This document shows, one piece after another, positions 433 to 40,352 of a stretch of DNA of 64,000 bases. The translations under genes were made by a program, and so were the position numbers. The stretch is from contig JAJRTE010000107.1 of the NCBI GenBank assembly GCA_024278455.1, positions 1-64,000 on the forward strand, given 5' to 3'. The stretch's first letter is position 1, and each line of letters begins with the position of its first letter. Source of the DNA: Myxococcota bacterium. GTDB lineage: Bacteria; Myxococcota_A; UBA796; JAJRTE01. Under the pieces are notes generated by a model. The model made no database searches and was not told the origin of the DNA. It worked only from the letters and a program-made list of their open reading frames with translations.

Positions 433-729
433 ATGCTCAAGAAGAACTACTCCAGTACGCGCAAGTTCTGTCGCGTCACCTTCCGGTTGCCCGCCGGGAT
501 CGAAGCGGAAACCGCGGCAGTCCTGGGCGATTTCAATGACTGGAATCCGGAAGCGCGCCCCATGAGAAAGTTGAAGGCCGGGGGATTCAGCGCGACGGTC
601 TCCCTGAGCGCTCCTGCCGAGTATCGTTTCAGGTACCTGCTCGATGGAGAGCGCTGGGAGAACGACGATAGCGCCGATGGGTACCAGGCCAACGCATTTG
701 GTACCGAGGACGGCCTGTTGAAGGTGTGA
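433..729 (+). CDS. Small isoamylase-N/CBM48 (AMPK glycogen-binding-like) domain protein
   Basis: 98 aa; CRVTFRLP…A..AAVLGDFNDWNP….M..L..G.FSATVSL…YRFRYLLDGERWENDD is the CBM48/E-set signature. Confidence 0.85.
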   Translation: MLKKNYSSTRKFCRVTFRLPAGIEAETAAVLGDFNDWNPEARPMRKLKAGGFSATVSLSAPAEYRFRYLLDGERWENDDSADGYQANAFGTEDGLLKV

Positions 730-754: not shown

Positions 755-3676
755 TCAGGTGCCGGAAGGCGTTTGACCCGGTTCCCCGGTCGGTTCAGCC
801 GGTGCCGCCGTGGCCTCGTGCGGGTTCGGGGTTGCCGGCGGCGAGGTGGGCGGAGGGGATGTCTCCGCGGCCGGGCCTTCTCCCGCAGCCTCGATAGTCC
901 GCCGCCCGGGAAATGCCTCTGCCACATCCTCGGAACTTTCGCCCCCGGACCGTGCCGCCGCTGCCGTCTCCTCGAGCCCAGGTCCCGGACGTATCCCATG
1001 GGCCCCCATGGGCTTCCACGGAGGCGGAAAGTCGCCGGGGCGGCCCACCATGGGGAGACACCCCTGCCCGTCCGGGGGGGAACCCGGCAACCGGTACACG
1101 TCGAGAGTGTCGCCCCACGCCCTGCTTCGCTGTGCCACCACCTGCTCGGGGGGCCAGTAGTATTCCACCCGGCGGGAGCCGCCCGCGTCGTCATCCACGA
1201 GGACGACGAAGGAGTAGGCGATCTCGTCATCCAGCGGGAGCCTGATCGACGCATGGGTCACCGGTTCGGCGAACCGGTGCACCGACTCGCAACTGTTGGC
1301 GCCGGCCGTGCGCGAACGAATCTCCTCCAGCCGCGCACCCTCGGGCAGCGACACCTGTACACCCCGGCTGTGCCAGATACGGTAGCCGAACACGCCGCTC
1401 ATCACCAGGGCGAGAACGGTCGGGATCAGCAGCCACCGGAAGCGGTTCATGCGCTGGCGCAGGAAGTTCCAGAGTGCCCGGTGGATCTGTGCCCTGTCGG
1501 TCCGGCCGAGCAGGAACCAGGCGAGGATGTAGAAGGCCGCACCTCCCGCCGCGCCCACCACCTTTATCATGGTGTAGAACTGGCTTGGATTCTCGACCTG
1601 CGTGTCCAGGAAGAAGTCGTAGAGCGCCGTTGCGATCATCGTCCCCAGGGACACGACCAGCAGGTAGCGCAGCAACCGCCGCCACCGGGCGAGCGGGTCG
1701 TTGAGCGCACCGTGAAACCCCTTGCTGATCTGGTCCAGCGTCGGCCGCTCGTCCGGGCTCGAGTCCAGGCAGCGGCGAACCAACCGCACCAGAGGGCCGA
1801 CACTGATGTCCGTGGCACCTGTCAGCCGGTCCTCCAGGTGGTCCAGCATCTGTTGCGGCGAACTCTTCCGGGTCAGCAGGAGCCCGGCTATCGTCCCGAT
1901 GGCGTAGGCGTCGTCACTGTAGGTCGGGTGGTATGGCGGGGAATCCGCGTTCTCGAGGAACCCGGGAAGCCGCTCCGGAGCAACGAAAAGCGCCGCCGCG
2001 GCGAGCCGGCCGGCAGGATCCGGCGAAGACGGAGACAACCGCACATTCCAGCGCCCGCGGAGTTCCCCGGACGACAGCTCGGCCGTGATGGTCGGCGTGC
2101 CCAGGGGCGACCCTGCGTTGGCCGCACCGTTGTCCCCCAGGGCAACCCAGGTGATCTCGAGCTGCGACAGCGTGAGTAGTTGGTGGTTCCCCCCCGCTCG
2201 AGCCTGCTGTGTCGCGCGCGTGATCGCCTTGAGCAATTCGATGATCGCCCGGGCCGACGACGGCCCCCGGTCCGAGACCAGGGCGTCCAAGGGATGGGGA
2301 AGATACAACGGACTCCTGCCCCCCCCCGGCGAAGCCACCCGCTCGGTCTCCATGGTGGTCGTCACGTGGCGGCGCGTACCGGTCGTCTTTATCTCCGTGT
2401 GAGCCGTGGGCCGGGTATGCGTTTCGTCCGGCCGGCGCTCCACCTCCCGCTCCTGCGCCAGTTGCTTCGCGAACGCCTCCATCCTGTGCCGGAGGTGGCT
2501 GGCTCGAGGCAGGACCGCCATCAACCAGGGCTGCACGATGGGCGTTGCAAACCGGTAGACGAAGCGATCGTCGGCCACCTCGAGCCCGGCGATACCGGCC
2601 AGCTCCAGCGGAAGCAGCGTTTCCGCCGAGGTCTCCTCCACGGTGTGCCCGGCAACGAGTTCCTCGAGCGCATCCACGATGCGCTTGCTCCTTCCCTTGG
2701 CATTGGAAAGCATGGTCGAAAGACCTTCCCGGATGAGCGCCCGCCCCGGCTCGGCAAGCCCTTCGGCCCGCGATAGCCACTCCCATGCCCACACGGGAAC
2801 GCTGGCCCAGTCGTCGCTGAAGGTCTCGAGTAGCGCCGTCCCGATCGTCGCGTCCCGGTGAATGGCATCCAGGAACAGCTCGAGGAACCCTGCATACCCC
2901 CCCGTCACGTGCACCAGCACCTCGAGAAGTTCATCAGGGAGCCCGCCGGGCAGGGGCGTCAACTCGCAGAGATCCTCCACCGAGAACGGCGCCACGAGGT
3001 ACCGATCCGTCCGCTCGTAGAGCGGGGACGTGAGGAAACCAGTGCCTTCCACGATGGCCTCGCCACTCAGGAAGTCCGAGTGGCCGGTCATGACCAGCCG
3101 GAGAACCTGTTGCCGCGCCTTGTTGTCCAGCGCTACCCGAAGCGTACGCTGGAGACGCTCGCTCACCCGCCAGGGAAGATCGTGCATGGCCTCGAGCACG
3201 ATGACGGGCCAGTAGTGCTCCCGGCGGGCGACCAGGGCGAAATGGACCAGGAGGTCGTCCAACTCCGCTCCCGGAGCCTCCAGGACGTGGTTCGCCTCGA
3301 GACCGGGCTGTGGCGCCTCCTCCCAGGGCTCCGTGGTATCCGGAGCGAGTGCTCGAGCGAAGCTCGACTGGAGGGCGGTCTGGATGGCCTGGTCCCATGG
3401 CCCGCCTTCTCGAGTCGGGTCTCCACCGTCGTCGAGCCGGGCGACGACCTGGGACAAATTGGCCAGGTCCACCCACACGATGATGGTCTGGTCGCCGATC
3501 CCGCGCATGATATCGTTGGCGAGACGGTGCAGGTCGGCTCCGGGGGGCCCCATGATGGCCACGGCAGACCCCGGGCGGAGTTGGGCCGACGTGCTGCCCA
3601 GCGTCTTCAGGACCTGCCCTCGATGGTCCATGGGTATCAGACTCGGTCGGATATCGTCCTGTACGCGCCTGGTCAC
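755..3676 (-). CDS. Large protein with N-terminal degenerate AAA/STAND-like NTPase, degenerate Ser/Thr kinase C-lobe, TM segments and Pro/Ala-rich tail
   Basis: 973 aa; AIMGPPGADLHRLAND (Walker A-like, lacks GK[ST]); LFVAPERL…DDAYAIGTIAGLLLT…LVRLVRRCLDSSPDERPTLDQI (kinase APE/alphaF/alphaI region); hydrophobic helices LLRYLLVVSLGTMIATALYDFF and WLLIPTVLALVMSGVFGY. Confidence 0.8.
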   Translation of the reverse strand: MTRRVQDDIRPSLIPMDHRGQVLKTLGSTSAQLRPGSAVAIMGPPGADLHRLANDIMRGIGDQTIIVWVDLANLSQVVARLDDGGDPTREGGPWDQAIQTALQSSFARALAPDTTEPWEEAPQPGLEANHVLEAPGAELDDLLVHFALVARREHYWPVIVLEAMHDLPWRVSERLQRTLRVALDNKARQQVLRLVMTGHSDFLSGEAIVEGTGFLTSPLYERTDRYLVAPFSVEDLCELTPLPGGLPDELLEVLVHVTGGYAGFLELFLDAIHRDATIGTALLETFSDDWASVPVWAWEWLSRAEGLAEPGRALIREGLSTMLSNAKGRSKRIVDALEELVAGHTVEETSAETLLPLELAGIAGLEVADDRFVYRFATPIVQPWLMAVLPRASHLRHRMEAFAKQLAQEREVERRPDETHTRPTAHTEIKTTGTRRHVTTTMETERVASPGGGRSPLYLPHPLDALVSDRGPSSARAIIELLKAITRATQQARAGGNHQLLTLSQLEITWVALGDNGAANAGSPLGTPTITAELSSGELRGRWNVRLSPSSPDPAGRLAAAALFVAPERLPGFLENADSPPYHPTYSDDAYAIGTIAGLLLTRKSSPQQMLDHLEDRLTGATDISVGPLVRLVRRCLDSSPDERPTLDQISKGFHGALNDPLARWRRLLRYLLVVSLGTMIATALYDFFLDTQVENPSQFYTMIKVVGAAGGAAFYILAWFLLGRTDRAQIHRALWNFLRQRMNRFRWLLIPTVLALVMSGVFGYRIWHSRGVQVSLPEGARLEEIRSRTAGANSCESVHRFAEPVTHASIRLPLDDEIAYSFVVLVDDDAGGSRRVEYYWPPEQVVAQRSRAWGDTLDVYRLPGSPPDGQGCLPMVGRPGDFPPPWKPMGAHGIRPGPGLEETAAAARSGGESSEDVAEAFPGRRTIEAAGEGPAAETSPPPTSPPATPNPHEATAAPAEPTGEPGQTPSGT

Positions 3677-3940
3677 GCTCCGGTTCTCCTGTAGATCGCA
3701 CGCGCCTTCGGCGATGGCAAACCAGCGTCCGCGTTGCCGGGTGTTTCGACGGCTGCCGGACAGGCATCGGCACCGTGGGTGTCGCGAACAGACCGTCGCT
3801 TCCTTCAGCCTGTCCTGGCCGGTTCTTCGGACCGGGCCTCCGGCTCCTCCCCTTCTACCCTTCCAGACACCGGAGAGAGAGGGTTGTTCCGGCGATTCCT
3901 TCCAGCGTTGCCTGAATATTCCCAGAGTGACGAACAGCGT

Positions 3941-6900
3941 TCAGGACCTCGACAGTTCTTCAAGGAGCCGCTGGACTCGAGGCCGAACATCTCCCAGTCG
4001 ATTGCGAATGACGGACGGATACATGTCCAGTGGGAAGGAGTATACCCCATCTTTGACCGTGAGCGCCAGTGTGAGTGTCAGGTTGTCGAGCGAGCGGTGA
4101 AGTCCCTCGAAAGGAACCAGGCGCCAGATGTCCGAACCGAACTCGGTCTCGAGCAGGGCGTGGAGGTCCTCTTCCGTGAACGTGTTCACCCCCGCCGCCA
4201 CCAGGGTCAGGAGCACGAACTGTTCCCCGATCGACATGACTCTCGGACTCGTGAAATGCGTGTAGAGCTGCTCCTCGATCTGGATGGCGACGCCGTCGAC
4301 GTCTTCCCTTTGGATCCTCCGGTCCAGGCGTCGCTGGCGGGCCAGGCGTTCGTCGAGACGAGCGATGAGCTGGTCGCAGAACAACTGGATGATCCAGGGG
4401 ACACGATAGGTGCGTTCCACGATCACGTCCAGCAGGCCGTCCGATGCGAGTTCGATGTCGAGCGCGCCCATCGGGTTCCGCACGAGCGTCCTGGCGGCCT
4501 CGAGGCTGAGGGCGCCGAGGCGTATGAAGGTGGTGAAGTTGTGGAACGCCGACCGGGGGTTGAGCCTCAGCTCGTGGATCTTGGCGTAGCCCGCCATCAC
4601 CAGTCGAACGAGTCCCGCGTTGGCTAGGCTTCTCAGGTTCCACATCAGCGTCTCTGCTTGCTTCTCGGCCTCTTCGCCCGGCTGGTCGTAGATGCCGTCG
4701 ATCTCGTCCAGCAGGAGCACGACGCGCTGCCGGCTCTGCTGCAGGTGCCTCTCGAGTTGCAATCGCCCGCTGGAGGGCTCGAGGGCCGGCAGCCGCAAGA
4801 CTCGAGCGATTTCTCGCCACACGGCGTCCGGGTCGAGCCTGGCGCAGTCGAGGAACACGACCCTGGCACGGCTACCGAGTTCGGTGCTCAGCACCTGGCG
4901 CACCTTGAGGAGCAGGGTGGTCTTGCCGATCTTCCTGGACCCCACGATGGCGAAGGCCTTGTCGGGGTGCCGGAGGATTTCGTCGATTTCCGATTCCCGG
5001 CCGACGAACAGCACGTCCATCGCGCGTCCGATCAGGGGTCCGACGAGCTGGTAGGGCGACAGGTGCTTGAACTGGAACCCGGCGCCGGCGAGGAGATCGA
5101 GGAAGGCGTGCCGGCCGCCCCTGCCCAGCGCGGCTCTCGTGAGACGTCGTTCGGTGAGTCGAATGAGCCGCTCCCCTAGCAGTTCTCTCTCCTCGGGTTC
5201 CGACGCGCTCGTTCGTCCTCCCGGGGGCTCCCCGCCGGTCTCGAGGATGAAGCCGATGCTCTGACTCCCCGGCACGCCAGGGTCGTTTCGCAACGCCATG
5301 TCCGATCGTCTCAGCACCTCCCGCAGGTTCTGCGCCTCCAGGAAGGTCATGCCGGCTGGCACGCCGAAGACCGTGGCTCGAGAAAGCCGGGGAATGCGCA
5401 GCGAGGACAGGTCGAGTGTCAGGGCATGGGTGCCCTCCACGATTTCATGACGCGCAATGGACGGTTCCACCGAGAACAGCGACGCCCAGTCGCGCACGAC
5501 GTTGCGAAATGTCTCTGCTCCTGGCCGATCGTTCCAGGCCCGAACACGCTTGGCCAGTGCGACCAGGCGTTCCCAGCGGGCCTCGGCATCCTCGACGGCG
5601 CCGGCGGTACCAGCGTCGGGACCCTGGATGAGCCCCAGGAACACCAGGAAGGCCCGAAGCTGGCCCATGGTGCGAAGGCGCTTGTGCAGCGCGGGATAGA
5701 CGGACAGCGGAATGCTTTCCGCCACCAGTTCCCCCTCCAGGAGCCGGTGCCGGATGTTCCCCTCCTCCCCGGGCTCGAAGGGGTGGTTCACGTTCAGCCA
5801 TCGCCGGAACAACGGGATCGCCACCGACCAGGCTGTGCCGTCCTGGTAGCTCAGCCGCCGGAGGATACCCAGGTCGACCAGGTCCGACAGCATCGCCTCG
5901 ATGTTCGTCACGGCAAGGACGTGCGCCAGGGCGCAGCGGAAGTCGTGGGATCGAAACATGCCCGTCCGCAATTGTCCCCGCACGTTGCCAACCGTGATGC
6001 GCAGGTACTTCACGTCGTCCGGGAGCAGGACGGCTCCGGCCGGGTAGAGACGTTTCGACCGGTTGCCCCTGGCACGTACCTGGGTCATCACGTCGTCGGC
6101 CAGGATCATCCCCGGGCGCAACTCCCTGCGCGTAACCCGGGTACGCGCCGACCCCACGGCGGCGAGTGCCAGCCGGTGCAGCGGGGGCAGGCTGCGCATG
6201 CGCTCCTTGAGCAATCTCGAGACCGCCGGGAGCGCCTTCTGTACCAGGAAGCGATCCAGCTCTTCCGGCTCTCCCTGGCCCGACCGCTCGTCGGCCCGCC
6301 AGTTGAGCCAGTTGTCCGCTCGCTGGTCCTCGAGCGCCTCTGCGAGCAGGCGCACGAACGTGAGGTTCCAGCCGGCATGAGCGACCAACTTGTGGACGAT
6401 GTGCCGTGATGGGGTGAGGCGGGAGACCTCGAACAGCTTTGCCGCCCGGGCCAGGTGTTCCGCCTCCGCCCGGGACGCGCCGGGAGGGAACGGGAGTTCC
6501 GTGTCGATCACCAGCATCCGGCCCGCCAGGGGGGAGGGCGCAATGGCCAGGCGTGCCGCGGTCGCCCTGTCCACGGACAGCAGCAAGTGAACCTTGTGCG
6601 ACGGGTGGTCGAGCAACGCGCCGATCCATCGCATCACCTCGGCAGCCTGACGCCCGGCTCGTACCAGCATGGCTCGAGAGGTCTTCTTGAACACCAGCCA
6701 GAGGGCGCCTACCGATTCGGACACCTGGTACAGGATCCGGGTAAGTGCATTGTCCGGGTCCGAGCGCAGCGTCCCTCGGTCCGGGAAGGTGGATAGCAGG
6801 TCCTGGTCATACAACGCCCTGGCCAGGCGGTGGGTCAGCCACCAGGAGGGCGTGAGTTCCGTCGCCATTCGAGGAGGACCCTCGAGCATGGACGCCAGGT

Positions 6901-9900
6901 TGAGGATAACCACCGCTCGCCGCGCCGCTGTCACCCCCTCCGCGAGGCTCTGGGCCAGCTCGAGCGCCAGGTCGTCGCTGTCCTTGATGTCCTCCCCGGC
7001 CAGCATGATGGCTTGTCCCGCGCTGGCGTGGCGGAGCCGGTGCAACATCGCCTCGAAGGTCACCGGGGCTTCCTGGCGCCAGCGCGTCGGCGGGCCGACC
7101 GTGCTCGTCGACTCCTCCCGGATCACCTTTACCGGAATCGTGAAACACTGAGCCGCCTTTTCCTCGTGAACGCTCGTGTTCAGCTCGAAGGACAGCGTTA
7201 CGTGGTCGGCACGAGGGTCCACCAGGATTTCTGTCCGGTACTCGATCGCCTGCCCGTAGTTGATGGGCCCCTGGCACCACTCGAGCGTCCCGTCCCACAG
7301 GTAGGTCGCCCGTTCGTCCTGCCGGAGACCTACCATGAGGCCTTCCAGCGGGTGGCCACCAAGGTTGTGGATACGGGCCGAGACCACCGCCAGCCCATCC
7401 TCGGCCACCGTGACGCGGACATCCCGCACCTCGAGGTGCACCGCGTCCTGGAGCCTCCGGATCTCAGGACGCAGTATCTTTTGTCGCCAGCGATTCACGA
7501 CTGCCGCCACCACCCGTTGTTCGAGTGCCGCGCCCCCTTTCCACCGTTGCTTGAAACCCAGGAGGGTCTCCGAGTGGGCGACCAGGACCTGGATCCTGTC
7601 CTGGAAGCGCGACGTGTCATCGCGCTCGGAAGAGATGGGCGGCACCGCTGCAAGCAGCCTCGTGCGCACCTCGGCGAAGGCCTTGAGCCACGCCGCGTGG
7701 TGTACGGCGTTCGACCGGACCGACGGCAGGAACTCGGGTGCGTCCACCAGGAACCGACTGTACTGATCGTAGTCACGGTAGCCGAACGTCTCGAGGATGT
7801 CCTCGAGAGCCAGCCGCTCTTCCGTGGCACCGGGGAGAGCGTCCTCGAGTTCGGCCAGGAGATCCCGCCGTTCGCGGATGGCGTTTTCGAGCGCGGTGGG
7901 CGTGGTCGCCTGGAGCAGGGTAGCATACTGGCTCACCGCACGCCTGGCCACCGGGTCATCGACGACGTGAGGGAGGGACAGGGCCTCGCACACCCACTCC
8001 GCGATGCGGATGTTCTGGTCCTCGAGGTCCCTGACGAGCCGAATGGACGCCAGCGCGTTGGCCCGGCTGAACTCGAGCAGTTTGCGGCAGAACGTGCCGG
8101 CGACCGGCAGCACCTGGCGATGGCCGAGGGTCCCGGACGACTGTTCGGCCAGGTGATGGAGTGCCCGCCACCAGAAGAGCGCGTCGACGTGCTCATCGCG
8201 GAAGCGATACCACAGGTGCTCCAGCGCCTTGAGATAGGCCCTGGCAACCGACTGGTCGTCCAGGCTTCCGGTGGAGAGCACCAGTGCCTGTTCGTCCGCG
8301 CCAAGCCGGTCCAGCAGGAGCCCCAGTGCCTGGACGAGGTATTTTCGCGCCACGTTGGACCCATCCCCTGAAGCCAGGAAGTGTCGCAGGCACTCGTAGG
8401 CCCGGGGCCGGGTTTCGGGCTCCTCGTCGAGCCCTTCGAGCAGGCATCGGACCAGGGCTCGAGTCGCCGGACGGTTGGCCAGCAGGCGCGTTCCGTGTCG
8501 TTCCATGAACGCGACCAACTCCCCCGCGGACCGGGCTCCCCTCACGCAAGCCGACAGGGCCAGCGACGCCGGATCCCCCCTCCGCTCGAACAACTCCAAG
8601 ATCCCACGTTCCGGGAGTCGCTGCGCGAGTTGGTCCAGGATCGGCCGCACCGCATCGAGCGGTTCGCCCTCGGCCATCTCGAGGACCGCCGCTGTACCGG
8701 CCCTCGAGGAGACGAGCAGGTAGCAGTGGGGCAAAGTCGGGAATCTCAACGGCGCCAGGTCCGTCGGGTACCGCTCCACCATCGTGTTGGCGACGACCTC
8801 GCCATTCTTGAGAATCAGCAGCGAACCGTCGTCGAGCGCGGCGACGAACCTGTCCTCTCCGGCCACCCGGATGTGGCAGAGGTCGGTGATGCCTCTCGAG
8901 CACTGATACAGCCAGCACAATTCCGGGTCGTTCGTCGGACGTGCAGGTTCGCCGAAGGCGAGAATGAACCCGTTCGCCAGTCCGACGAGGAGCAGGCGGG
9001 GCGGGCGACCACCGCCGCTCGTCTCGAGTCCGGCGATCCTGAACGCGGTGACCGGGGAGGTCATGCGCAGGGCGGAGCGCTGGAATGAAAGGCTACCAGC
9101 GCGGAGGCGCAAGTCCGTGCAAACCAGCAGGTCGCGCGCGCCGTCCACCAAGAGCGTCGGTTTCTGTCTCCACGAGGCCACCGCCACGTGGTGCACGGGC
9201 CCTTGGCGGTGGAGTTCGAGGAGGGGGGTGGGGTCCAGTCCGGCGAAGCAGGCATGGCTCGCCGCGCCACCGTCCTCCCGGATGGCGAACAGTCTGAGTC
9301 GGCCGTCGGCCTGCCCCAGCGCCAGCACGGTGGCGTGGCCATCCGAGTCCCCGCTCACCGGAATCTCGAGCAGTGACAGGGCCGTCACGGGTTCCTCGAG
9401 GTCCAGGGTCGCCGACTCGACCGGGTGGAGATACGTGTGATCGCCGGTGACGGTCGCCGTGTACAGGAGCAACCGGTCATGCGTCGTCAGAGCCAGGAGC
9501 GCCGGCCGGTTCCGGTGCGAAAGGGACGCCAGGGCGGTCGCACCCGGAATCTGCTCGAACGCCGATGGTTCCGGGATTTCCGCCGATGGGTGCACCAGGT
9601 AGACCTGTAGCCCGTCTTCGTGAATGGCTGCCATCCTCGCCGGAACGGGCCTGCCGCCGGAGGGCGTGTCGCAGCCGGTGTCGCCGGGCACGATACGCAC
9701 CACTCGAGTCACCCCTGGCAGTGTCGTCGTGCGGCAGAGGGGGTAGCTGTGGCGTTGCCAGGTGAGCACCGCCGCGCGGTAGAGGTTTTTCACCTTCTCG
9801 TCCCAGGTTTCCGCCGCGTTCGCCGCCTCGAGGGCCTCCTGTATCACGACGAAGTCTTCCCGGGGCCAGTGGGACCATGGCGAGAGTGCCTGGGGGTTCC

Positions 9901-11515
9901 TGGCGCGATACCGGTCGAACGTCTCGGGATCCAGCCACTGGTTTCGGAGTCGTCGCAGCAGGCGCTCGATGCGCCGTCGCGCATCACCATGGGTGAACGG
10001 CGCGATGGCTGCCACAGCGGTGAAGAGCATGTGCAGCCTGGGTTCATCGCTTCCTGCCCGTCCTTCTGTCGTGCCGGGCGCCGTATCGCCGATGACCGAA
10101 GCGAACTGCCAGGTCAGAAATCGCACGACCGTGGCCGCGCTCGTATCATCGAGCCAACCAGCGCTGGAGAAGAGGTGGATCAGGCCGTCGCGGATCAGGG
10201 TGAGCTGTTCGGGCGGGAGGTCGCGTCTCCTGAGCAATCGATCGATGAGGAGCATGCACAGGTAGGGCCGGAATGGCCTTTGAACGCCAGGCTGGACGGA
10301 CTCGGGACGTGCAAGGAAGCGTCTCCCCGGGGGGCTGGCGCCGGGCATGGCCGCGTGGCTGGACGAAGATCTCTTGGGGCGGATCGACCCGGGCGGTTCC
10401 ACGGGGAGGTTGGACCGCAGCAGGGTTTCCGGGGGATCCTCCGCTTCGGAGAGGAGGCGTTCGATGCTGTTCCACACCCGTCTCGAGTCGGAGAATTCGT
10501 AGAAGGTCAGCAGGCCACCGGGAGTGGCAGTGACCAGTTGGTGTCTCTCCCTCCCGGCGAATGTCGCCGCAGCAAGGCTGTTTCGCGTGTCGTATTTCCA
10601 TGCCGGGCGGCCGGTGTCCAGATCGATGGAGAAGACCGTGCCATCGGCCATTGCGGCAATCAGCGCCCTTTTCTCGGTTCCGGGGCCCGACAGCAGCGCC
10701 TTGGCCGGGACGGGAGTATCCAGGGTGATGATCGGACGAAGCACCGGTGGTCGAGGGCCGAATGGGTCGGACACGGCCACGATCTCATTGGATCGCGCCA
10801 CGAAGTACAAGGTCTCGCCGTCGAACAGCGGGTGGTGAAGCGGGTGGGCGGCGCGGTGAATCGTTTTCCACGGATGGTAGGGAGAAGGCCGGGCAAGCAG
10901 CTCGTAGGTCGGGCGATCGGCAACATCTTGAGTTCGCCGTACCTCGAGCTGGACGCTGGTCTCCAGCGGTGAGTCGTTGGCGCCGATCGCCACGGGGGCC
11001 GTTGCAGCAGTTCCCTTGGTCTGGAGAACGGTGATCTCGCCGCTGCTCGAGACGTCGATGCGGTACTGCAAGAGGTTATCTGCAGCGGTGCAAACGATGA
11101 TGGCCTCCACGGCGGCCAGGTGCCCGACGGCCTGGAACGTCATCCCTATTGGCGTCCCCTCAACCGGGAGCGTCCACCGCTGGAGTTGGAAACCCTTCTC
11201 GGGAAGATCCTCGAGCCGGAAGAGGTGGACGTGGGCCGAGTCCAGTCCGATGAGAAGCAGCCGGTCATCCGCCCGGTCGGGAAAGGTCGCCAGGTGAACC
11301 AGCTCGAATCCAGGTGCCACCGTCTCGGCCTGGAGCAGCGGCCGGTCGAGATAGGGGGCGAGCCGGTCCAGCTGATCCAGCGCTCGAGCCTTGCGGCCGC
11401 CGTCGGCGGTCTCGTCTGTGTCCGGGTGGTCGATTCGGGCCAGGAGCTTCCGGTAGTCTCGGCTTTCCCGGTTGGCGTGTTCGAGCGGAACGGGGGTCCA
11501 GTTCTTGAGAATCAT
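3941..11515 (-). CDS. Giant multidomain protein: beta-propeller-like N-terminal half, helical repeats, C-terminal STAND/AAA_16-like ATPase
   Basis: 2524 aa from ATG at 11513-11515 (MILKNWTPV…); propeller-like repeats; Walker A VGSRKIGKTTLL, Walker B RVVLLLDEIDG near the C-terminus. ORF-track start 11722 looks like an upstream extension. Confidence 0.8.
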   Translation of the reverse strand: MILKNWTPVPLEHANRESRDYRKLLARIDHPDTDETADGGRKARALDQLDRLAPYLDRPLLQAETVAPGFELVHLATFPDRADDRLLLIGLDSAHVHLFRLEDLPEKGFQLQRWTLPVEGTPIGMTFQAVGHLAAVEAIIVCTAADNLLQYRIDVSSSGEITVLQTKGTAATAPVAIGANDSPLETSVQLEVRRTQDVADRPTYELLARPSPYHPWKTIHRAAHPLHHPLFDGETLYFVARSNEIVAVSDPFGPRPPVLRPIITLDTPVPAKALLSGPGTEKRALIAAMADGTVFSIDLDTGRPAWKYDTRNSLAAATFAGRERHQLVTATPGGLLTFYEFSDSRRVWNSIERLLSEAEDPPETLLRSNLPVEPPGSIRPKRSSSSHAAMPGASPPGRRFLARPESVQPGVQRPFRPYLCMLLIDRLLRRRDLPPEQLTLIRDGLIHLFSSAGWLDDTSAATVVRFLTWQFASVIGDTAPGTTEGRAGSDEPRLHMLFTAVAAIAPFTHGDARRRIERLLRRLRNQWLDPETFDRYRARNPQALSPWSHWPREDFVVIQEALEAANAAETWDEKVKNLYRAAVLTWQRHSYPLCRTTTLPGVTRVVRIVPGDTGCDTPSGGRPVPARMAAIHEDGLQVYLVHPSAEIPEPSAFEQIPGATALASLSHRNRPALLALTTHDRLLLYTATVTGDHTYLHPVESATLDLEEPVTALSLLEIPVSGDSDGHATVLALGQADGRLRLFAIREDGGAASHACFAGLDPTPLLELHRQGPVHHVAVASWRQKPTLLVDGARDLLVCTDLRLRAGSLSFQRSALRMTSPVTAFRIAGLETSGGGRPPRLLLVGLANGFILAFGEPARPTNDPELCWLYQCSRGITDLCHIRVAGEDRFVAALDDGSLLILKNGEVVANTMVERYPTDLAPLRFPTLPHCYLLVSSRAGTAAVLEMAEGEPLDAVRPILDQLAQRLPERGILELFERRGDPASLALSACVRGARSAGELVAFMERHGTRLLANRPATRALVRCLLEGLDEEPETRPRAYECLRHFLASGDGSNVARKYLVQALGLLLDRLGADEQALVLSTGSLDDQSVARAYLKALEHLWYRFRDEHVDALFWWRALHHLAEQSSGTLGHRQVLPVAGTFCRKLLEFSRANALASIRLVRDLEDQNIRIAEWVCEALSLPHVVDDPVARRAVSQYATLLQATTPTALENAIRERRDLLAELEDALPGATEERLALEDILETFGYRDYDQYSRFLVDAPEFLPSVRSNAVHHAAWLKAFAEVRTRLLAAVPPISSERDDTSRFQDRIQVLVAHSETLLGFKQRWKGGAALEQRVVAAVVNRWRQKILRPEIRRLQDAVHLEVRDVRVTVAEDGLAVVSARIHNLGGHPLEGLMVGLRQDERATYLWDGTLEWCQGPINYGQAIEYRTEILVDPRADHVTLSFELNTSVHEEKAAQCFTIPVKVIREESTSTVGPPTRWRQEAPVTFEAMLHRLRHASAGQAIMLAGEDIKDSDDLALELAQSLAEGVTAARRAVVILNLASMLEGPPRMATELTPSWWLTHRLARALYDQDLLSTFPDRGTLRSDPDNALTRILYQVSESVGALWLVFKKTSRAMLVRAGRQAAEVMRWIGALLDHPSHKVHLLLSVDRATAARLAIAPSPLAGRMLVIDTELPFPPGASRAEAEHLARAAKLFEVSRLTPSRHIVHKLVAHAGWNLTFVRLLAEALEDQRADNWLNWRADERSGQGEPEELDRFLVQKALPAVSRLLKERMRSLPPLHRLALAAVGSARTRVTRRELRPGMILADDVMTQVRARGNRSKRLYPAGAVLLPDDVKYLRITVGNVRGQLRTGMFRSHDFRCALAHVLAVTNIEAMLSDLVDLGILRRLSYQDGTAWSVAIPLFRRWLNVNHPFEPGEEGNIRHRLLEGELVAESIPLSVYPALHKRLRTMGQLRAFLVFLGLIQGPDAGTAGAVEDAEARWERLVALAKRVRAWNDRPGAETFRNVVRDWASLFSVEPSIARHEIVEGTHALTLDLSSLRIPRLSRATVFGVPAGMTFLEAQNLREVLRRSDMALRNDPGVPGSQSIGFILETGGEPPGGRTSASEPEERELLGERLIRLTERRLTRAALGRGGRHAFLDLLAGAGFQFKHLSPYQLVGPLIGRAMDVLFVGRESEIDEILRHPDKAFAIVGSRKIGKTTLLLKVRQVLSTELGSRARVVFLDCARLDPDAVWREIARVLRLPALEPSSGRLQLERHLQQSRQRVVLLLDEIDGIYDQPGEEAEKQAETLMWNLRSLANAGLVRLVMAGYAKIHELRLNPRSAFHNFTTFIRLGALSLEAARTLVRNPMGALDIELASDGLLDVIVERTYRVPWIIQLFCDQLIARLDERLARQRRLDRRIQREDVDGVAIQIEEQLYTHFTSPRVMSIGEQFVLLTLVAAGVNTFTEEDLHALLETEFGSDIWRLVPFEGLHRSLDNLTLTLALTVKDGVYSFPLDMYPSVIRNRLGDVRPRVQRLLEELSRS

Positions 11516-11631: not shown

Positions 11632-12004
11632 CTGCTCCGCTTTTTCGGCGCCCCTGTCGTTCCGCGCAGTCGATGGAAGACATCCGTCGAGCGGACTCCG
11701 GGGCCGACTCGAGCAGGGGCACCGCAAGGATCGCCGACAGGAGCGATCTTCACACGCGTGCGTTCTTGTCCGAAAGCACTTTGACAGCGTGCTGTGCGGA
11801 TATCGGACGGAGGCAGACATGTCGCTGATCCGCACTGGACGAGGAACACGCTGGCCGTAGCGCCGGGCGCCTGGCGGCTGACACGGGCATTGATTCGCGT
11901 CAGCAGGATGCCGCGCCCGGCAACGTCCTGGTCTCGATTCGGAGAAGATTCTCGTATTCGTGTCCCGGGATCGGGTCGGGTTCCGTGACCGGCTTCGATA
12001 CTGG

Positions 12005-25946: not shown

Positions 25947-28130
25947 ATGTCGCGTGGCGCGATTGCAGTGCTGACGATGCTATGGCTTGGGGCACTCGCT
26001 TGCCACTCCCCCGACCCGGACCGGGACCTGGATGGGTCGCCGGCGTCCAGGGACTGTGACGATACCGACCCCAGGACCTATCCCGGCGCCGATGAGGTAT
26101 GCGAGGATGGCATCGATCAGAACTGTGACGGCGGTGACGAGCCGTGCCCGGACGCGGAGCAGGATTGGGACCAGGATGGGTTCGACGCCATCGAGTATGG
26201 TGGAGCCGATTGCAACGACCAGCGAAGCGACGTGTACCCGGGGGCGCCGGAAGTGCCATACGACGGTATTGATCAGGATTGCAGCGGCGAGGACCTGGTG
26301 GACGTGGATGGCGACGGCCAGGCCGCGACGGAGGCCGGGGGAGAGGATTGCAACGACGCAGCCGCCACGGTCTACCTGGGCGCGGCCGAAACGCCCTACG
26401 ACGGTGTGGACCAGGATTGTGACGGAAGCGACACCGTCGATGTGGACGGCGACGGCGTTCCCGGCATTCCTGCTGGAGGGGACGACTGTGACGACGAGGA
26501 CGCCGGCGTGTATCCCGGCGCGGAAGAACTGCCGGAAAACGGGGTCGATGAGAACTGCGACGGACTGGACGACATCGACCAGGACAGCGACGGACATGGC
26601 GCCGCTGACGATTGCGACGACAGCGACCCAGGCGTCTACCCCGGCGCCGTGGAGACGCCTTGCAACGAACTGGACGAGGACTGCGACGGGTACGTCGAGG
26701 ACCGGGATTGCGATGGCGTCGACGGCCCACCTCTTGGCCCCGATTGCGACGACACCGACCCGGACATTTCTCCGCTCGCCCCTGAAGTGCCGTGCAATGG
26801 CATCGACGAAAACTGTGACGGGTTCGCCGGGGACGAAGATTGTGACGGGGTGGACGGGTCGAACACTGGTGGAGCGGACTGTGACGACCTGAACGCTGCT
26901 GTCTATCCGGGCGCGATAGAGGTGCTCAACAATGACCGGGATGACGATTGTGACGGCAGCGTCGACGAGCCGGCGCATGCTGGGGACGCCTCGTCTGGCT
27001 TTTGGGGACCGGCGGGGAGCCATGCAGGGGCCGCCCTTGCGGTCGGAGACCTGGATGGCGATGGCGTACCGGACTTGGCGATCGGCGCGCCGGCCTATGC
27101 CGGTGAGCAGGAGCCCGCAACCGGGGCTGTCTTCGTTGTTGCAGGCGGGCGGGAAAGTCTCGAGAGCGAACTCCTGGAGCCAAGCAGTCTTCTGGTCGGA
27201 CAGGCGGACGGCGAGTATTTCGGTGCGTCGCTTGCGATCGGGGACGTGGATGGAGACGGAACGAATGATTTGATCATTGGAGCGCCGGGACGACCGGATG
27301 ACCCGACGTTTGCCGGCAAGGTCTATGTCGTGTCCGGGAGTGTCCTGCCATTTTCCGGTACGGTCGTTGCCCTTGCGCTGGTGGTGGAGGGTGCTGAGGT
27401 GGGAAGCAGGTTCGGCGCCGCCGTCGCCGTTCCCGGTGACGTGAATGGCGATGGCGTGGATGATTTCCTGATCGGCGCGCCCGAATCGACCTGTGGCGCC
27501 GGGGCGGCTTGCGGCGCCGCCTATTTCTTCCTGGGATCCTCCAGCGCAGTCCCGCCAGCCCCGGGTTCCGCCGACCTCCTGTGGACCGGCACCGAAAACG
27601 GAGAGCGCACGGGCGCCTACGTCGCAGGAACGGGGGATATCGACCAGGACGGCATGGCGGACATGGCGATCGGGTCTCCGGGTGCCAACGCGGGGATCGG
27701 TCTTGTCTCGTTCTTTCTCGGGCGTGACCATGCCACCCACTGGCCGGACGATCGCGTCAAGACAGTGGTAGTCAGTCTGGAAGACACCCAGCCCATCGGC
27801 CTTGGGCCAGTGGCTGAGTGTGGCGACATCAACCAGGACGGCCACGTAGACCTTCTGCTCGGTGCACCCGGGGACGCCGACGACACGGGCCGTACCTACG
27901 TCCTGTTTGGACCTTGGCTCCAGGAGAGCCAGCAGGTCTATGAAATAGAGAGACTCTCGCATGCTTCATTCCTGGGCGAGGGCGAGGGAGATCGGTTCGG
28001 AAGTGTTTTTCGCACCGGGTGGGTGTCTGGCGGAGCGTTCGCCGATGTCCTGGTCGGCGCCGCCGCCCATGACGGCTCCAGCGGGCGTCTGTATCTTTTC
28101 CAGGCCGCAGGGGGAAAGGTGTGGGGCTAA
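25947..28130 (+). CDS. MopE-like lipoprotein with DCDD…YPGAxE…DGxDxNCDG repeats and FG-GAP (integrin-alpha-like) repeats; terminated early by in-frame TAA
   Basis: Lipobox-like LGALAC; about 8 MopE repeats; GDLDGDGVPDLAIGAP, GDVDGDGTNDLIIGAP, GDVNGDGVDDFLIGAP. Confidence 0.9.
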   Translation: MSRGAIAVLTMLWLGALACHSPDPDRDLDGSPASRDCDDTDPRTYPGADEVCEDGIDQNCDGGDEPCPDAEQDWDQDGFDAIEYGGADCNDQRSDVYPGAPEVPYDGIDQDCSGEDLVDVDGDGQAATEAGGEDCNDAAATVYLGAAETPYDGVDQDCDGSDTVDVDGDGVPGIPAGGDDCDDEDAGVYPGAEELPENGVDENCDGLDDIDQDSDGHGAADDCDDSDPGVYPGAVETPCNELDEDCDGYVEDRDCDGVDGPPLGPDCDDTDPDISPLAPEVPCNGIDENCDGFAGDEDCDGVDGSNTGGADCDDLNAAVYPGAIEVLNNDRDDDCDGSVDEPAHAGDASSGFWGPAGSHAGAALAVGDLDGDGVPDLAIGAPAYAGEQEPATGAVFVVAGGRESLESELLEPSSLLVGQADGEYFGASLAIGDVDGDGTNDLIIGAPGRPDDPTFAGKVYVVSGSVLPFSGTVVALALVVEGAEVGSRFGAAVAVPGDVNGDGVDDFLIGAPESTCGAGAACGAAYFFLGSSSAVPPAPGSADLLWTGTENGERTGAYVAGTGDIDQDGMADMAIGSPGANAGIGLVSFFLGRDHATHWPDDRVKTVVVSLEDTQPIGLGPVAECGDINQDGHVDLLLGAPGDADDTGRTYVLFGPWLQESQQVYEIERLSHASFLGEGEGDRFGSVFRTGWVSGGAFADVLVGAAAHDGSSGRLYLFQAAGGKVWG

Positions 28131-37259: not shown

Positions 37260-37826
37260 TTGCCCGTGCAATTGTCTCGCACTGATATCCAGGATCTCTA
37301 CGAGCGGTATGCCCATGTCGTGCACCGCCGTTGCCTGTCGATCCTCCGTGACGAGGAGGACGCATACGATGCCATGCAGGAGGTCTTCGTGCGGCTCATC
37401 AAGCATGCAGACCAGTTTCGTGGCGAGGCTCAGCCCCTCACCTGGCTCTACCGGACGAGCACGAACCTGTGCCTGAACCGGATACGGGACCGCCGGTCCC
37501 GTGCCAGGAAGTTGGCTGAGCCCAACCCCGCCGCAGACACCTTGCCCGGCATGGGCGCGTTCTCGCGGATCGACCCGGAGCGCCGGCACCTGGTCGCGTC
37601 GTTGCTCGAAAAGGCCGACGAGTCGACCCGCGCGATCGTCCTCTACTACTTCGTCGACGAGATGACGTTGGAAGAGGTCTCCCGTATCGTGGGCGTGAGC
37701 GTGCCGACGATTCGCAAGCGGATCCGGCGATTCCAGCGGATCGCCGGGAAATCGGTTGGCAGAACCGCCTTGAGCGCGTGTCTCCTGGCGCTCGTCGGCG
37801 GTCTCGAAGCCTGGAGGGTGTCATGA
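37260..37826 (+). CDS. ECF-type RNA polymerase sigma factor (TTG 37260 or GTG 37266)
   Basis: DLYERYAHVVHRRCLSILRDEEDAYDAMQEVFVRLIKHADQFRGEAQPLTWLYRTSTNLCLNRIRD; sigma4 TLEEVSRIVGVSVPTIRKRIRRF. Confidence 0.9.
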   Translation: MPVQLSRTDIQDLYERYAHVVHRRCLSILRDEEDAYDAMQEVFVRLIKHADQFRGEAQPLTWLYRTSTNLCLNRIRDRRSRARKLAEPNPAADTLPGMGAFSRIDPERRHLVASLLEKADESTRAIVLYYFVDEMTLEEVSRIVGVSVPTIRKRIRRFQRIAGKSVGRTALSACLLALVGGLEAWRVS

Positions 37827-38734
37827 GCGTGCGAGACGAGGCGAAACCGGCCGTGTCACGAGCCTCCGGGTGCTTCTCGAGGTTCCTGCTCGAGCGTTAC
37901 CTGGCCGCGGAACTGGGTGACCCCGACGCCAGCCGTGTTGCAAGCCACCTCGAGGCCTGCGCGCGGTGCCAGGGGCTGCTCGAGACCCTCGAAAAGGAGA
38001 AGGCGGCCTTCCAGGACCGCGTCCCGTTCGACAGGTTCTACAGCGACCTCGAGGCGCGCCTTCGCCGGGATGCCACCGCCGATCGAGACGCCCGGCAGGC
38101 GACGCTCGAGATGTCTGGCGGCAGGGTGGGTTCCTGGCTGGAGCGCGTGCGGGCGTGGATCGCGGACTTTTCGCAATGGCTGGCCGGACCGCGGTGGGCG
38201 GTCGTCGCCGTCGTCGCCGTGGCGCTGGTGGTCGTGCTTCCACGAACGGGCGGCCTGATCCCCGGCGACCACGACGACGGATCCCGTATCAAGGCCACGG
38301 CCGTTCATCCCGGCCCGCTCGAGGTGGTGTTGCTCAGGGACGGCCGGATCGTGCAGGCGGTGAGCGGAGACCTGTTCCACCAGGGCGACAGGCTCCAGTT
38401 CAGGATCGCCCCCGGCACATGGCGGTTCCTGCACCTGGTCAGCCTGGATGACCAGGGAAGGCTCACCCCGTTCTACCCCGATGACGGGTCGGCCAGCCTC
38501 GAGCTGCGGCTTGACGCCGAACAGTTGTTGCCGGGTGCCATCGAACTCGACGACTTCGTGGGCCAGGAGCGGATTTTCGCCGTATTCAGCCAGGAGCCCC
38601 TGGACTATTCCGTCGTGGAGGAAGCTGCCAGGAGACTCGGGGCAGGCATGTCCCTGCCGCTCGACCTGGCGCGGATCGAGGAACTGCCCATCGATGGGAC
38701 GGCCCAGGTGTCCTTCCTGATGATCAAGGAGTAG
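37823..38734 (+). CDS. Zinc-finger anti-sigma-like membrane protein with DUF4384-like C-terminal domain
   Basis: 303 aa; HLEACARC (HxxxCxxC); TM WAVVAVVAVALVVVLP; FHQGDRLQFRIAPGTWRFLHLVSLDDQGRLTPFYPD; ATGA overlap with sigma gene. Confidence 0.75.
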   Translation: MSVRDEAKPAVSRASGCFSRFLLERYLAAELGDPDASRVASHLEACARCQGLLETLEKEKAAFQDRVPFDRFYSDLEARLRRDATADRDARQATLEMSGGRVGSWLERVRAWIADFSQWLAGPRWAVVAVVAVALVVVLPRTGGLIPGDHDDGSRIKATAVHPGPLEVVLLRDGRIVQAVSGDLFHQGDRLQFRIAPGTWRFLHLVSLDDQGRLTPFYPDDGSASLELRLDAEQLLPGAIELDDFVGQERIFAVFSQEPLDYSVVEEAARRLGAGMSLPLDLARIEELPIDGTAQVSFLMIKE

Positions 38735-38741
38735 CCGGGAG

Positions 38742-40352
38742 ATGACGTGTCGAGCCCGCACAAGATGGCTCCTGTTCGCGGTCATCCTGGCGATCACCGG
38801 GAACCTGGACGCCGGCGAGATGCGCCGGTTCGGACTGTTCGTGGGAGAGAATGACGGAGGCGCTCGAGCACACAGGCTGCTGTACGCCGCCCAGGACGCT
38901 CGCACCATGCGGGACCTGCTGGTAGAACACGGTGCCATCGACCCGAACGACGCCAGGTTGCTCGTCGACGTGACCGAACGGGGGGTCCAGGACGCCATCC
39001 GGGCCATGGGCAAGCGGATTCGGGCGCACCGTGGCGCCGGGGGGCGCGCCACGCTCTTTTTCTACTACTCCGGGCATGGCGACAGCCAGGGCCTGCGGCT
39101 CCGCGATACCATCCTCGCGCTCGGTGCATTGAAACAGGCACTCCGGGACACCACGGCCGATCTGCGCATCGTCATGCTCGACGCCTGCCAGAGCGGCCAG
39201 GCCACCCGGCCCAAGGGCGGAACCAGGGCGCCCTCGTTCCTCGTCGAGGTGGACCGTGGGGAGAACCTGGCCGGCGAGGTCATCATCACCTCGAGCGCTG
39301 CGGACGAGGCGTCCCAGGAGTCGGACAGGATAGGAGGAGGCTATTTCACGCATCACCTGGCCACCGGCTTGAGAGGCGCCGCGGACATCTCTCGAGACGG
39401 GATGGTCACCCTGGAAGAGGCTTACGCCTATGCGTACAACAGGACCCTGTACGAGACTGCCGGGTCGGCGGTGGGTCTTCAGCACGCAGGATACGCGGCC
39501 GATCTGCGGGGGCACGGTACGCTCGTGCTGACCTGGCCGGCCGACGGCCAGACCGTCCTCGTGTTTCCCCCCGGGCTGAACGGCAGCTTCATGGTTTTCG
39601 ACCGGGACCGGAAGCTGTTCGTCGCCGACCTCGAGATGAACGGGCGTGACGAGCGGCGCCTGGCCTTGCCCGCCGGCCGCTACGTGGTCCAGAAGAGGGC
39701 GCCGGACCACCTGCTCACCACCGAGGTGTACCTGACTCGAGGCGTCATGCGCCAGGTCGACGAGAAGGAGATGACAGCCACCGGGTTCGAAGACGATTTC
39801 GCCAAGGGTGTGGAATTGGCGAACATTCGGCGAGCCACCCGCGTCCCGGTCCTGGTGAGCGGCCTCGCCGGCGTGCAGAAGTTCCTGTTGCAACCGGCGG
39901 GCACGCCCCTGTTCATCGACATGCCCATGGCGGGGCTCGAGGTCGAATGGCGCGGGCTGATAGGCCCGAACTGGTCCCTCACTGCCGACGTGATGACTGG
40001 CGTCGCGGAGACGACCCTGGATTTCTCCGCCTACGACGTGCCTACCTCGTACTGGCAGTTCAACGTCGGGCTGGGGTTGAAGTATGGCAGAAGCTGGGGG
40101 CCGTTGCGACTGTCGGCGGGGCCGCACGTCGGCAACCTGTACGTGCGCCGATCGTTCCCGGGCAGCATCGAGCCGCCGCAGGACTTCATGATGGTGTCAC
40201 CCGGCGTGATTGGAGAAGCCGCGCTTCGACTGACCCCGCGATTGGTCGTGGGCGTGCAGGGACGGAGCCACCTGCTATACTACTACGTGGAAGACGACGA
40301 TTTCAGCCTTGCCTACAGCGAGGCGCTGGTTCGAGCAACGGTGCGGTTTTGA
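38742..40352 (+). CDS. Secreted caspase-like (peptidase C14) protein with C-terminal beta-barrel-like region
   Basis: 536 aa; signal peptide; FFYYSGHGD (His) and VMLDACQSGQ (Cys) dyad motifs; C-terminal amphipathic strands ending …ALVRATVRF. Confidence 0.85.
   Translation: MTCRARTRWLLFAVILAITGNLDAGEMRRFGLFVGENDGGARAHRLLYAAQDARTMRDLLVEHGAIDPNDARLLVDVTERGVQDAIRAMGKRIRAHRGAGGRATLFFYYSGHGDSQGLRLRDTILALGALKQALRDTTADLRIVMLDACQSGQATRPKGGTRAPSFLVEVDRGENLAGEVIITSSAADEASQESDRIGGGYFTHHLATGLRGAADISRDGMVTLEEAYAYAYNRTLYETAGSAVGLQHAGYAADLRGHGTLVLTWPADGQTVLVFPPGLNGSFMVFDRDRKLFVADLEMNGRDERRLALPAGRYVVQKRAPDHLLTTEVYLTRGVMRQVDEKEMTATGFEDDFAKGVELANIRRATRVPVLVSGLAGVQKFLLQPAGTPLFIDMPMAGLEVEWRGLIGPNWSLTADVMTGVAETTLDFSAYDVPTSYWQFNVGLGLKYGRSWGPLRLSAGPHVGNLYVRRSFPGSIEPPQDFMMVSPGVIGEAALRLTPRLVVGVQGRSHLLYYYVEDDDFSLAYSEALVRATVRF

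Follow-up and report, generated by a model that had tools for sequence, protein, structure and literature searches.

A giant STAND-type ATPase and a membrane pseudoenzyme of a Myxococcota bacterium as a candidate conflict module, and related giants in RADAR-like operons

A giant STAND-type ATPase protein (P1) and a membrane protein (P2), encoded side by side near one end of a Myxococcota contig, can tentatively be read as a STAND-type conflict module of two genes, its output rewired to a membrane pseudoenzyme. This reading draws on the kinship of P1 to giant proteins of RADAR-linked loci, in which such a giant is followed by a small companion protein with a degenerate ATPase. RADAR itself is a system of two genes, with variants that contain Csx27 or SLATT membrane proteins (PMC9994260, PMC7699616, PMC11676413). 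In the authors' view, the four-gene RADAR-like operon in which these giants occur is a more valuable by-product of the analysis than the P1-P2 pair.

The P1-P2 locus and its genomic setting

The window, that is, the whole stretch of DNA analysed, comprises bases 1-64,000 of a contig of 68,237 bases and belongs to a MAG of 7.03 Mb that is 94% complete. Three genes define the locus:

3941..11515, minus strand: P1, giant STAND-type ATPase protein of 2524 aa (ORF starting with ATG)
755..3676, minus strand: P2, membrane protein of 973 aa (ORF starting with GTG)
433..729, plus strand: small convergent CBM_48 gene of 98 aa (ORF; Pfam CBM_48 at 1e-5), 25 bp past the P2 stop

P1 and P2 are separated by 264 bp (3677-3940), and the P1 frame stays open upstream to a GTG at 11722, which would extend the protein to 2593 aa. 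The codon-position GC of both genes (0.70/0.47-0.51/0.82) is coding-like, with third-position values near those of the ribosomal genes of the window. Because the contig ends there, the flank beyond P2 is only 754 bp long, while the other side of P1 adjoins the S10 ribosomal operon, transcribed in the opposite direction. Placed between a convergent gene and an oppositely directed operon, P1 and P2 thus form a two-gene unit as far as is visible. No defence island was recognised in these surroundings.

Two further features of the window were observed. Directly past the rplQ end of the ribosomal operon, positions 25947-28130 encode a large protein with MopE metal-binding motifs and FG-GAP repeats. 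Additionally, an ECF-type sigma factor gene is followed by a caspase-domain (Peptidase_C14) gene at 37260-40352.

Domain organisation of P1

All of the following features of P1 are on the minus strand:

10346..11338, minus strand: first propeller-like region, aa ~60-390, bounds approximate (weak PQQ_2/BamB matches at 273-353; hhalign of 260-350 to related giants)
8711..9718, minus strand: second propeller-like region, aa ~600-935, bounds approximate (hhalign of 709-795 and 813-951 to related giants)
7124..7435, minus strand: seven-stranded beta-sandwich-like domain, aa ~1361-1464 (AlphaFold2, pLDDT roughly 62-82 over most strands)
5786..7078, minus strand: degenerate second copy of the ATPase-winged-helix unit, aa ~1480-1910 (sequence; GEDIKDSD replaces Walker A)
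6053..6400, minus strand: segment common specifically to RADAR-linked giants, aa 1706-1821 (profile search, hhalign shuffles)
3944..5068, minus strand: intact STAND-type ATPase with a C-terminal winged-helix-like end, aa ~2150-2524 (Pfam, alignments, model)
4919..4942, minus strand: Walker A motif GSRKIGKT, aa 2192-2199 (sequence, alignments)

The three stretches 260-350, 709-795, and 813-951 all align in hhalign, without separation into blades, with one and the same propeller-like region of related giants, and the section 580-960 reaches an E-value of 1.5e-4. The intact ATPase is matched in Pfam by AAA_22 (1.8e-10) and NACHT (4.9e-7) over residues 2185-2315, and its Walker B reads LLLDEID. 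At the position of the GxP-type motif, relatives have GYP, GIP, or GLP and P1 has RVP; the P1 model shows a winged-helix-like C-terminal end. The region 1480-1910, read as the degenerate copy, has neither GK[ST] nor an acidic Walker B in its sequence, and a related STAND profile matches residues 1869-1907 with its winged-helix end. In an AlphaFold model of residues 1330-2524, the ATPase and the beta-sandwich are confident and the degenerate ATPase between them is poor. Among solved folds, Orc/Cdc6 initiators come closest to this model, and NOD2 ranks 37th. No clear TM helix was found in P1 by Kyte-Doolittle analysis.

Domain organisation of P2

P2 is composed of an N-terminal half, a kinase remnant, and a membrane part:

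2477..3676, minus strand: probable degenerate STAND-like ATPase with helical lid and winged helix, aa 1-400 (hhalign to the companion profile, low-confidence model)
1682..2314, minus strand: kinase C-lobe remnant, aa ~455-665 (profile matches and sequence; APE, alpha-F Asp, and ERP kept)
1607..1675, minus strand: predicted TM helix 1, aa ~668-690 (Kyte-Doolittle)
1502..1570, minus strand: predicted TM helix 2, aa ~703-725 (Kyte-Doolittle)
1373..1441, minus strand: predicted TM helix 3, aa ~746-768 (Kyte-Doolittle)
758..1369, minus strand: tail, aa ~770-973, predicted extracytoplasmic (positive-inside rule)

In the first 400 residues, GPPGADLH occupies the Walker A position, and the motif VIVLEAMHDL is present without the catalytic Glu. 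The model of this half has low confidence; its first PDB matches, led by CED-4 and a plant resistosome, also include NLRC4 and Apaf-1, none of them below E 0.001. The kinase part is matched by the kinase part of MkoA in PADLOC (4e-6, profile positions 189-297 only), by a kinase-domain protein (33.6% over 113 aa, 6e-7), and by the C-lobe positions 161-258 only of Pfam Pkinase at 0.29. The sequence contains HQLLTLSQL where HRDLKPxN would be expected. An active Ser/Thr kinase was considered and ruled out, as the N-lobe with its Lys and the HRD and DFG motifs are absent. The loop between TM helices 2 and 3 is basic, and the last ~200 residues would therefore lie outside the cytoplasm. Among solved structures, none related by sequence to P1 or P2 was found, and the kinase part of P2 gave nothing meaningful.

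An earlier sequence-only reading had described two same-strand frames 264 bp apart, the first with propeller-like repeats and one intact P-loop ATPase and the second with a degenerate NTPase, a kinase C-lobe, and TM helices. All these elements were recovered here, although the STAND neighbours of the P2 model fall below significance. The second, degenerate ATPase copy and the beta-sandwich of P1 are additional to that description.

Kinship to giant proteins and their companions

A profile of the pre-ATPase segment of the giants, built with P1 left out, matches P1 at 1706-1821 with a domain E-value of 4.4e-9 among 443 ORFs, and no comparable ORF of this set was found outside the RADAR-linked giant family. 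None of 200 shuffles reached the hhalign score of this segment. The P1 ATPase scores 127 bits against the RADAR-giant profile and 110, 84, and 76 bits against three other giant groups, the margin over the kinase-linked group (127 vs 110) being small. A tree of STAND ATPases joins P1, the RADAR giants, and two further groups in one cluster (support 93/98) whose branching order is left open. Membership of P1 in the giant family of RADAR-linked loci is well supported, as are the gene order and domain content of the pair and the constant succession of giant and companion.

Against a profile of six companions, P2 reaches an hhalign E-value of 3e-4, with 0 of 200 shuffles as high and rank 6 of 196 against decoys. 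By hmmsearch the match is weak (domain E 0.018 among 443 ORFs). The companions were aligned by themselves, as a joint MAFFT alignment with P2 and kinases was misaligned. P2 also shares the position and strand of a companion, directly downstream of the giant. Together, profile and position suggest that P2 is a companion-like degenerate STAND protein.

Giant STAND proteins in RADAR-like operons

A scan of GTDB genomes yielded seven loci (L106-L112), three of which are contigs already found in the search of the phylum. They come from Deltaproteobacteria UBA2385, Lysobacterales UBA5700, Planctomycetota, an unclassified bacterium, Acanthopleuribacter pedis, Myxococcota MAG.78, and Sulfidibacter corallicola, and thereby span at least four phyla (Myxococcota-group, Pseudomonadota, Planctomycetota, and Acidobacteriota). 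The gene order is identical in all seven: giant, companion, RdrA-like ATPase, and RdrB deaminase, as exemplified by the four-gene operon L112:1709-17674. The companion, of ~360-470 aa, lies between the giant and the RdrA-like gene in each of them. In most pairs, the giant and companion genes either overlap or are at most about 25 bp apart. In L107:3968-12733, giant and companion are fused in a single 2921-aa ORF, which supports a physical link between the two proteins. The Walker A Lys is missing from all companions that were read, as it is in P2.

Similar loci of the phylum search (L043, L044, L053) encode a giant, a small protein, an AAA_16 ATPase, and an RdrB-like adenosine deaminase, with PADLOC RdrB matches of 1e-18 to 5e-22. 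At 20 other RdrB loci of the phylum, several of them on short contigs, no giant gene was found. The giant-linked RdrBs cluster together with two other RdrBs (support 100/99). The RdrA-like proteins of the giant loci match the PADLOC RdrA weakly or not at all, but in several ordinary loci their own profile picks up the protein at the RdrA position, with E-values from about 1e-7 to 1e-14.

This operon is not a named system in the sources searched, and no mention of a giant STAND gene tied to RADAR was found in the open-licence literature. To our knowledge, the trigger that switches RADAR on is unsettled. The occurrence of a giant STAND protein inside a RADAR operon, including in sequenced Acidobacteriota strains, makes the sensing step of RADAR directly testable.

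Search for relatives of the pair and giants with other neighbours

No close relatives of P1 or P2 were found in 58 genomes of relatives, and none of P1 in 71 genomes of the class or by a pattern scan of genome contigs. Similarly, no exact relatives occurred among plasmids (P1 and P2) or phages (P1). Full-length searches in class-mates returned local ATPase matches only, and the ATPase domain of P1, searched alone, found matches in 40 of 284 genomes of the phylum, many of them inside ORFs of 1,800-2,900 aa.

Some of these giants have partners other than RADAR genes. In L045:1-7614 and L046:4175-11640, a propeller-STAND giant precedes a protein that joins a degenerate NTPase to an intact Ser/Thr kinase (Pkinase 1.6e-48 in L046); these partners, too, are without the Walker A Lys, and the L046 giant is apparently membrane-anchored. 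Other giants adjoin genes for HEPN_Swt1 (L048, and weakly L095), SIR2_2 (L094), metallophosphoesterase (L051, L093, L098), or trypsin-AAA_16 (L093). Neighbours of the HEPN_Swt1, SIR2_2, metallophosphoesterase, and trypsin-like kinds are typical of conflict systems.

On the question of synteny raised by the sequence-only reading, the exact pair occurs in no other searched genome, but pairs equivalent in architecture do exist. Its view that the pair belongs to no named system agrees with PADLOC 2.0, where neither Avs nor another named system is identified: the best P1 match has E 0.011 (candidate PDC-S01) and P2 matches only the MkoA kinase part. The description as a propeller-bearing giant STAND next to a pseudo-ATPase/pseudokinase membrane protein also stands. 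The existence of giants paired with a degenerate-ATPase companion, and of giants paired with a degenerate ATPase-kinase protein, makes the P1-P2 pair a variant of a module family rather than a stand-alone unknown.

Comparison with known systems

One of the closest likenesses is to the giant-RADAR loci (e.g., Sulfidibacter corallicola M133 and Acanthopleuribacter pedis). It consists of the plan of the giant, with propeller-like regions, the pre-ATPase segment, and a C-terminal STAND ATPase, and of a same-strand degenerate-ATPase protein downstream. Those loci run on into RdrA-like and RdrB genes, whereas P2 has a pseudokinase, TM helices, and a tail instead. The relation to RADAR proper exists only through the giants: standard RADAR has no giant STAND protein, although RADAR variants, too, include membrane proteins. 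No RdrA gene is present at the P1-P2 locus between the contig end and the S10 operon, and the only RdrB candidate in the MAG is an ordinary adenosine deaminase-like match (E 2.5e-7). The possibility that the locus is itself a RADAR system was ruled out, as it has neither RdrA nor RdrB.

The L045 and L046 pairs, from two genomes of the same phylum, resemble P1-P2 in having a giant with a related ATPase followed by a same-strand degenerate ATPase-kinase protein. In these pairs, however, the giant seems to be membrane-anchored with an external propeller and the kinase is intact, while here it is P2 that holds the membrane part, and only a remnant of the kinase is left. Kaur et al. 2020 (PMC7159879) describe NTPase conflict systems of several genes that use inactive STAND (iSTAND) and inactive kinase domains. 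Those systems are of the MoxR-vWA ternary kind, and none of their genes lies beside P1 or P2, with the contig ending 754 bp past P2. Among the PADLOC kinases of Mokosh (MkoA) and PD-T4-6, P2 matches the MkoA kinase part, but as a C-lobe remnant without catalytic motifs.

Proposed mechanism and alternative explanations

As a rule, STAND proteins act as switches, assembling once a cue is sensed. In the proposed conflict module, P1 would be a cytosolic giant sensor that uses its propeller-like and helical regions to bind such a cue, perhaps part of a phage. Cue binding would license ATP-dependent assembly through the only intact ATPase, while the degenerate copy would be a permanent structural or regulatory element. 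P2 would be the membrane-anchored partner; its cytosolic degenerate ATPase may dock on the P1 assembly, as is presumed for companions in giant-RADAR operons. With one active ATPase and two degenerate ones, P1 and P2 plausibly build an assembly whose ATP cycling is confined to P1. The pseudokinase and the three TM helices could then relay the signal to the membrane through clustering, permeabilisation, a scaffold, or a decoy, so that a membrane output would stand in for the one presumed for RdrA and RdrB in the relatives. As P2 lacks an intact enzyme, catalysis is a less likely output than scaffolding, decoy binding, or membrane perturbation.

Several points count against a conflict module: the exact pair is known from one genome, the hmmsearch match of P2 to companions is weak, the NTPase half of P2 is poorly modelled, the 264 bp gap differs from the tight giant-companion spacing, and the locus lies beside the S10 operon. 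The more specific idea of an immune sensor module that departed from a giant-RADAR operon, with an output composed entirely of inactive enzymes and membrane helices, is doubtful. If true, it would mean that members of a single giant STAND sensor family are exchanged among RADAR deaminases, kinases, and membrane pseudoenzymes, with P1-P2 as a case of the same sensor type driving another, membrane-bound output of degenerate enzymes.

A physiological role is a somewhat unlikely alternative, in which P1 would integrate a cytosolic cue and P2 relay it to the extracytoplasmic tail in envelope or developmental signalling rather than immunity. Myxobacteria commonly use kinases and propellers in signalling, and ribosomal and CBM_48 genes, not a defence island, surround the pair. 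Yet the nearest giants adjoin deaminase, HEPN, SIR2, and metallophosphoesterase genes, and the searched class-mates lack the pair, which would not be expected of a core pathway. More improbable is that P2 is an unrelated neighbour, brought next to the STAND sensor P1 in a reduced or decaying locus while the output of P1 is elsewhere or lost. The intergenic gap, the weak P2-companion statistics, the many degenerate domains, and the single known genome would fit such decay. Both frames, however, are long, intact, and coding-like, P2 has a degenerate ATPase-like half at the position and strand of a companion, and in L045 and L046 the giant is likewise followed by an NTPase-kinase protein.

It is very improbable that the locus is a giant-RADAR operon from which RdrA and RdrB were lost or moved, with P2 as a remodelled companion that has no new output. 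P1 does resemble the RADAR-linked giants, and the genome has no RdrB beyond the deaminase-like match, but the kinase-like part, the three TM helices, and the tail that P2 has acquired exceed the needs of a relic, and the ATPase motifs of P1 are intact.

Other observations on related proteins

Related giants in L048:8171-15216, L049, and L095:354-12623 adjoin an NTPase-like protein that looks degenerate and ends in a Swt1-type HEPN part, and L095 also encodes a DEAD helicase with an MZB domain. In L009:6508-12716, a TIR-STAND-TPR protein that carries a second ATPase, of the AAA_22 type, at its C-terminus lies beside a PNP_UDP_1-domain protein. The AAA_22 ATPase of the class of P1 also occurs fused to an N6 methylase with an HsdS-like specificity domain, in L010:6500-10735 and L011:9202-13320.
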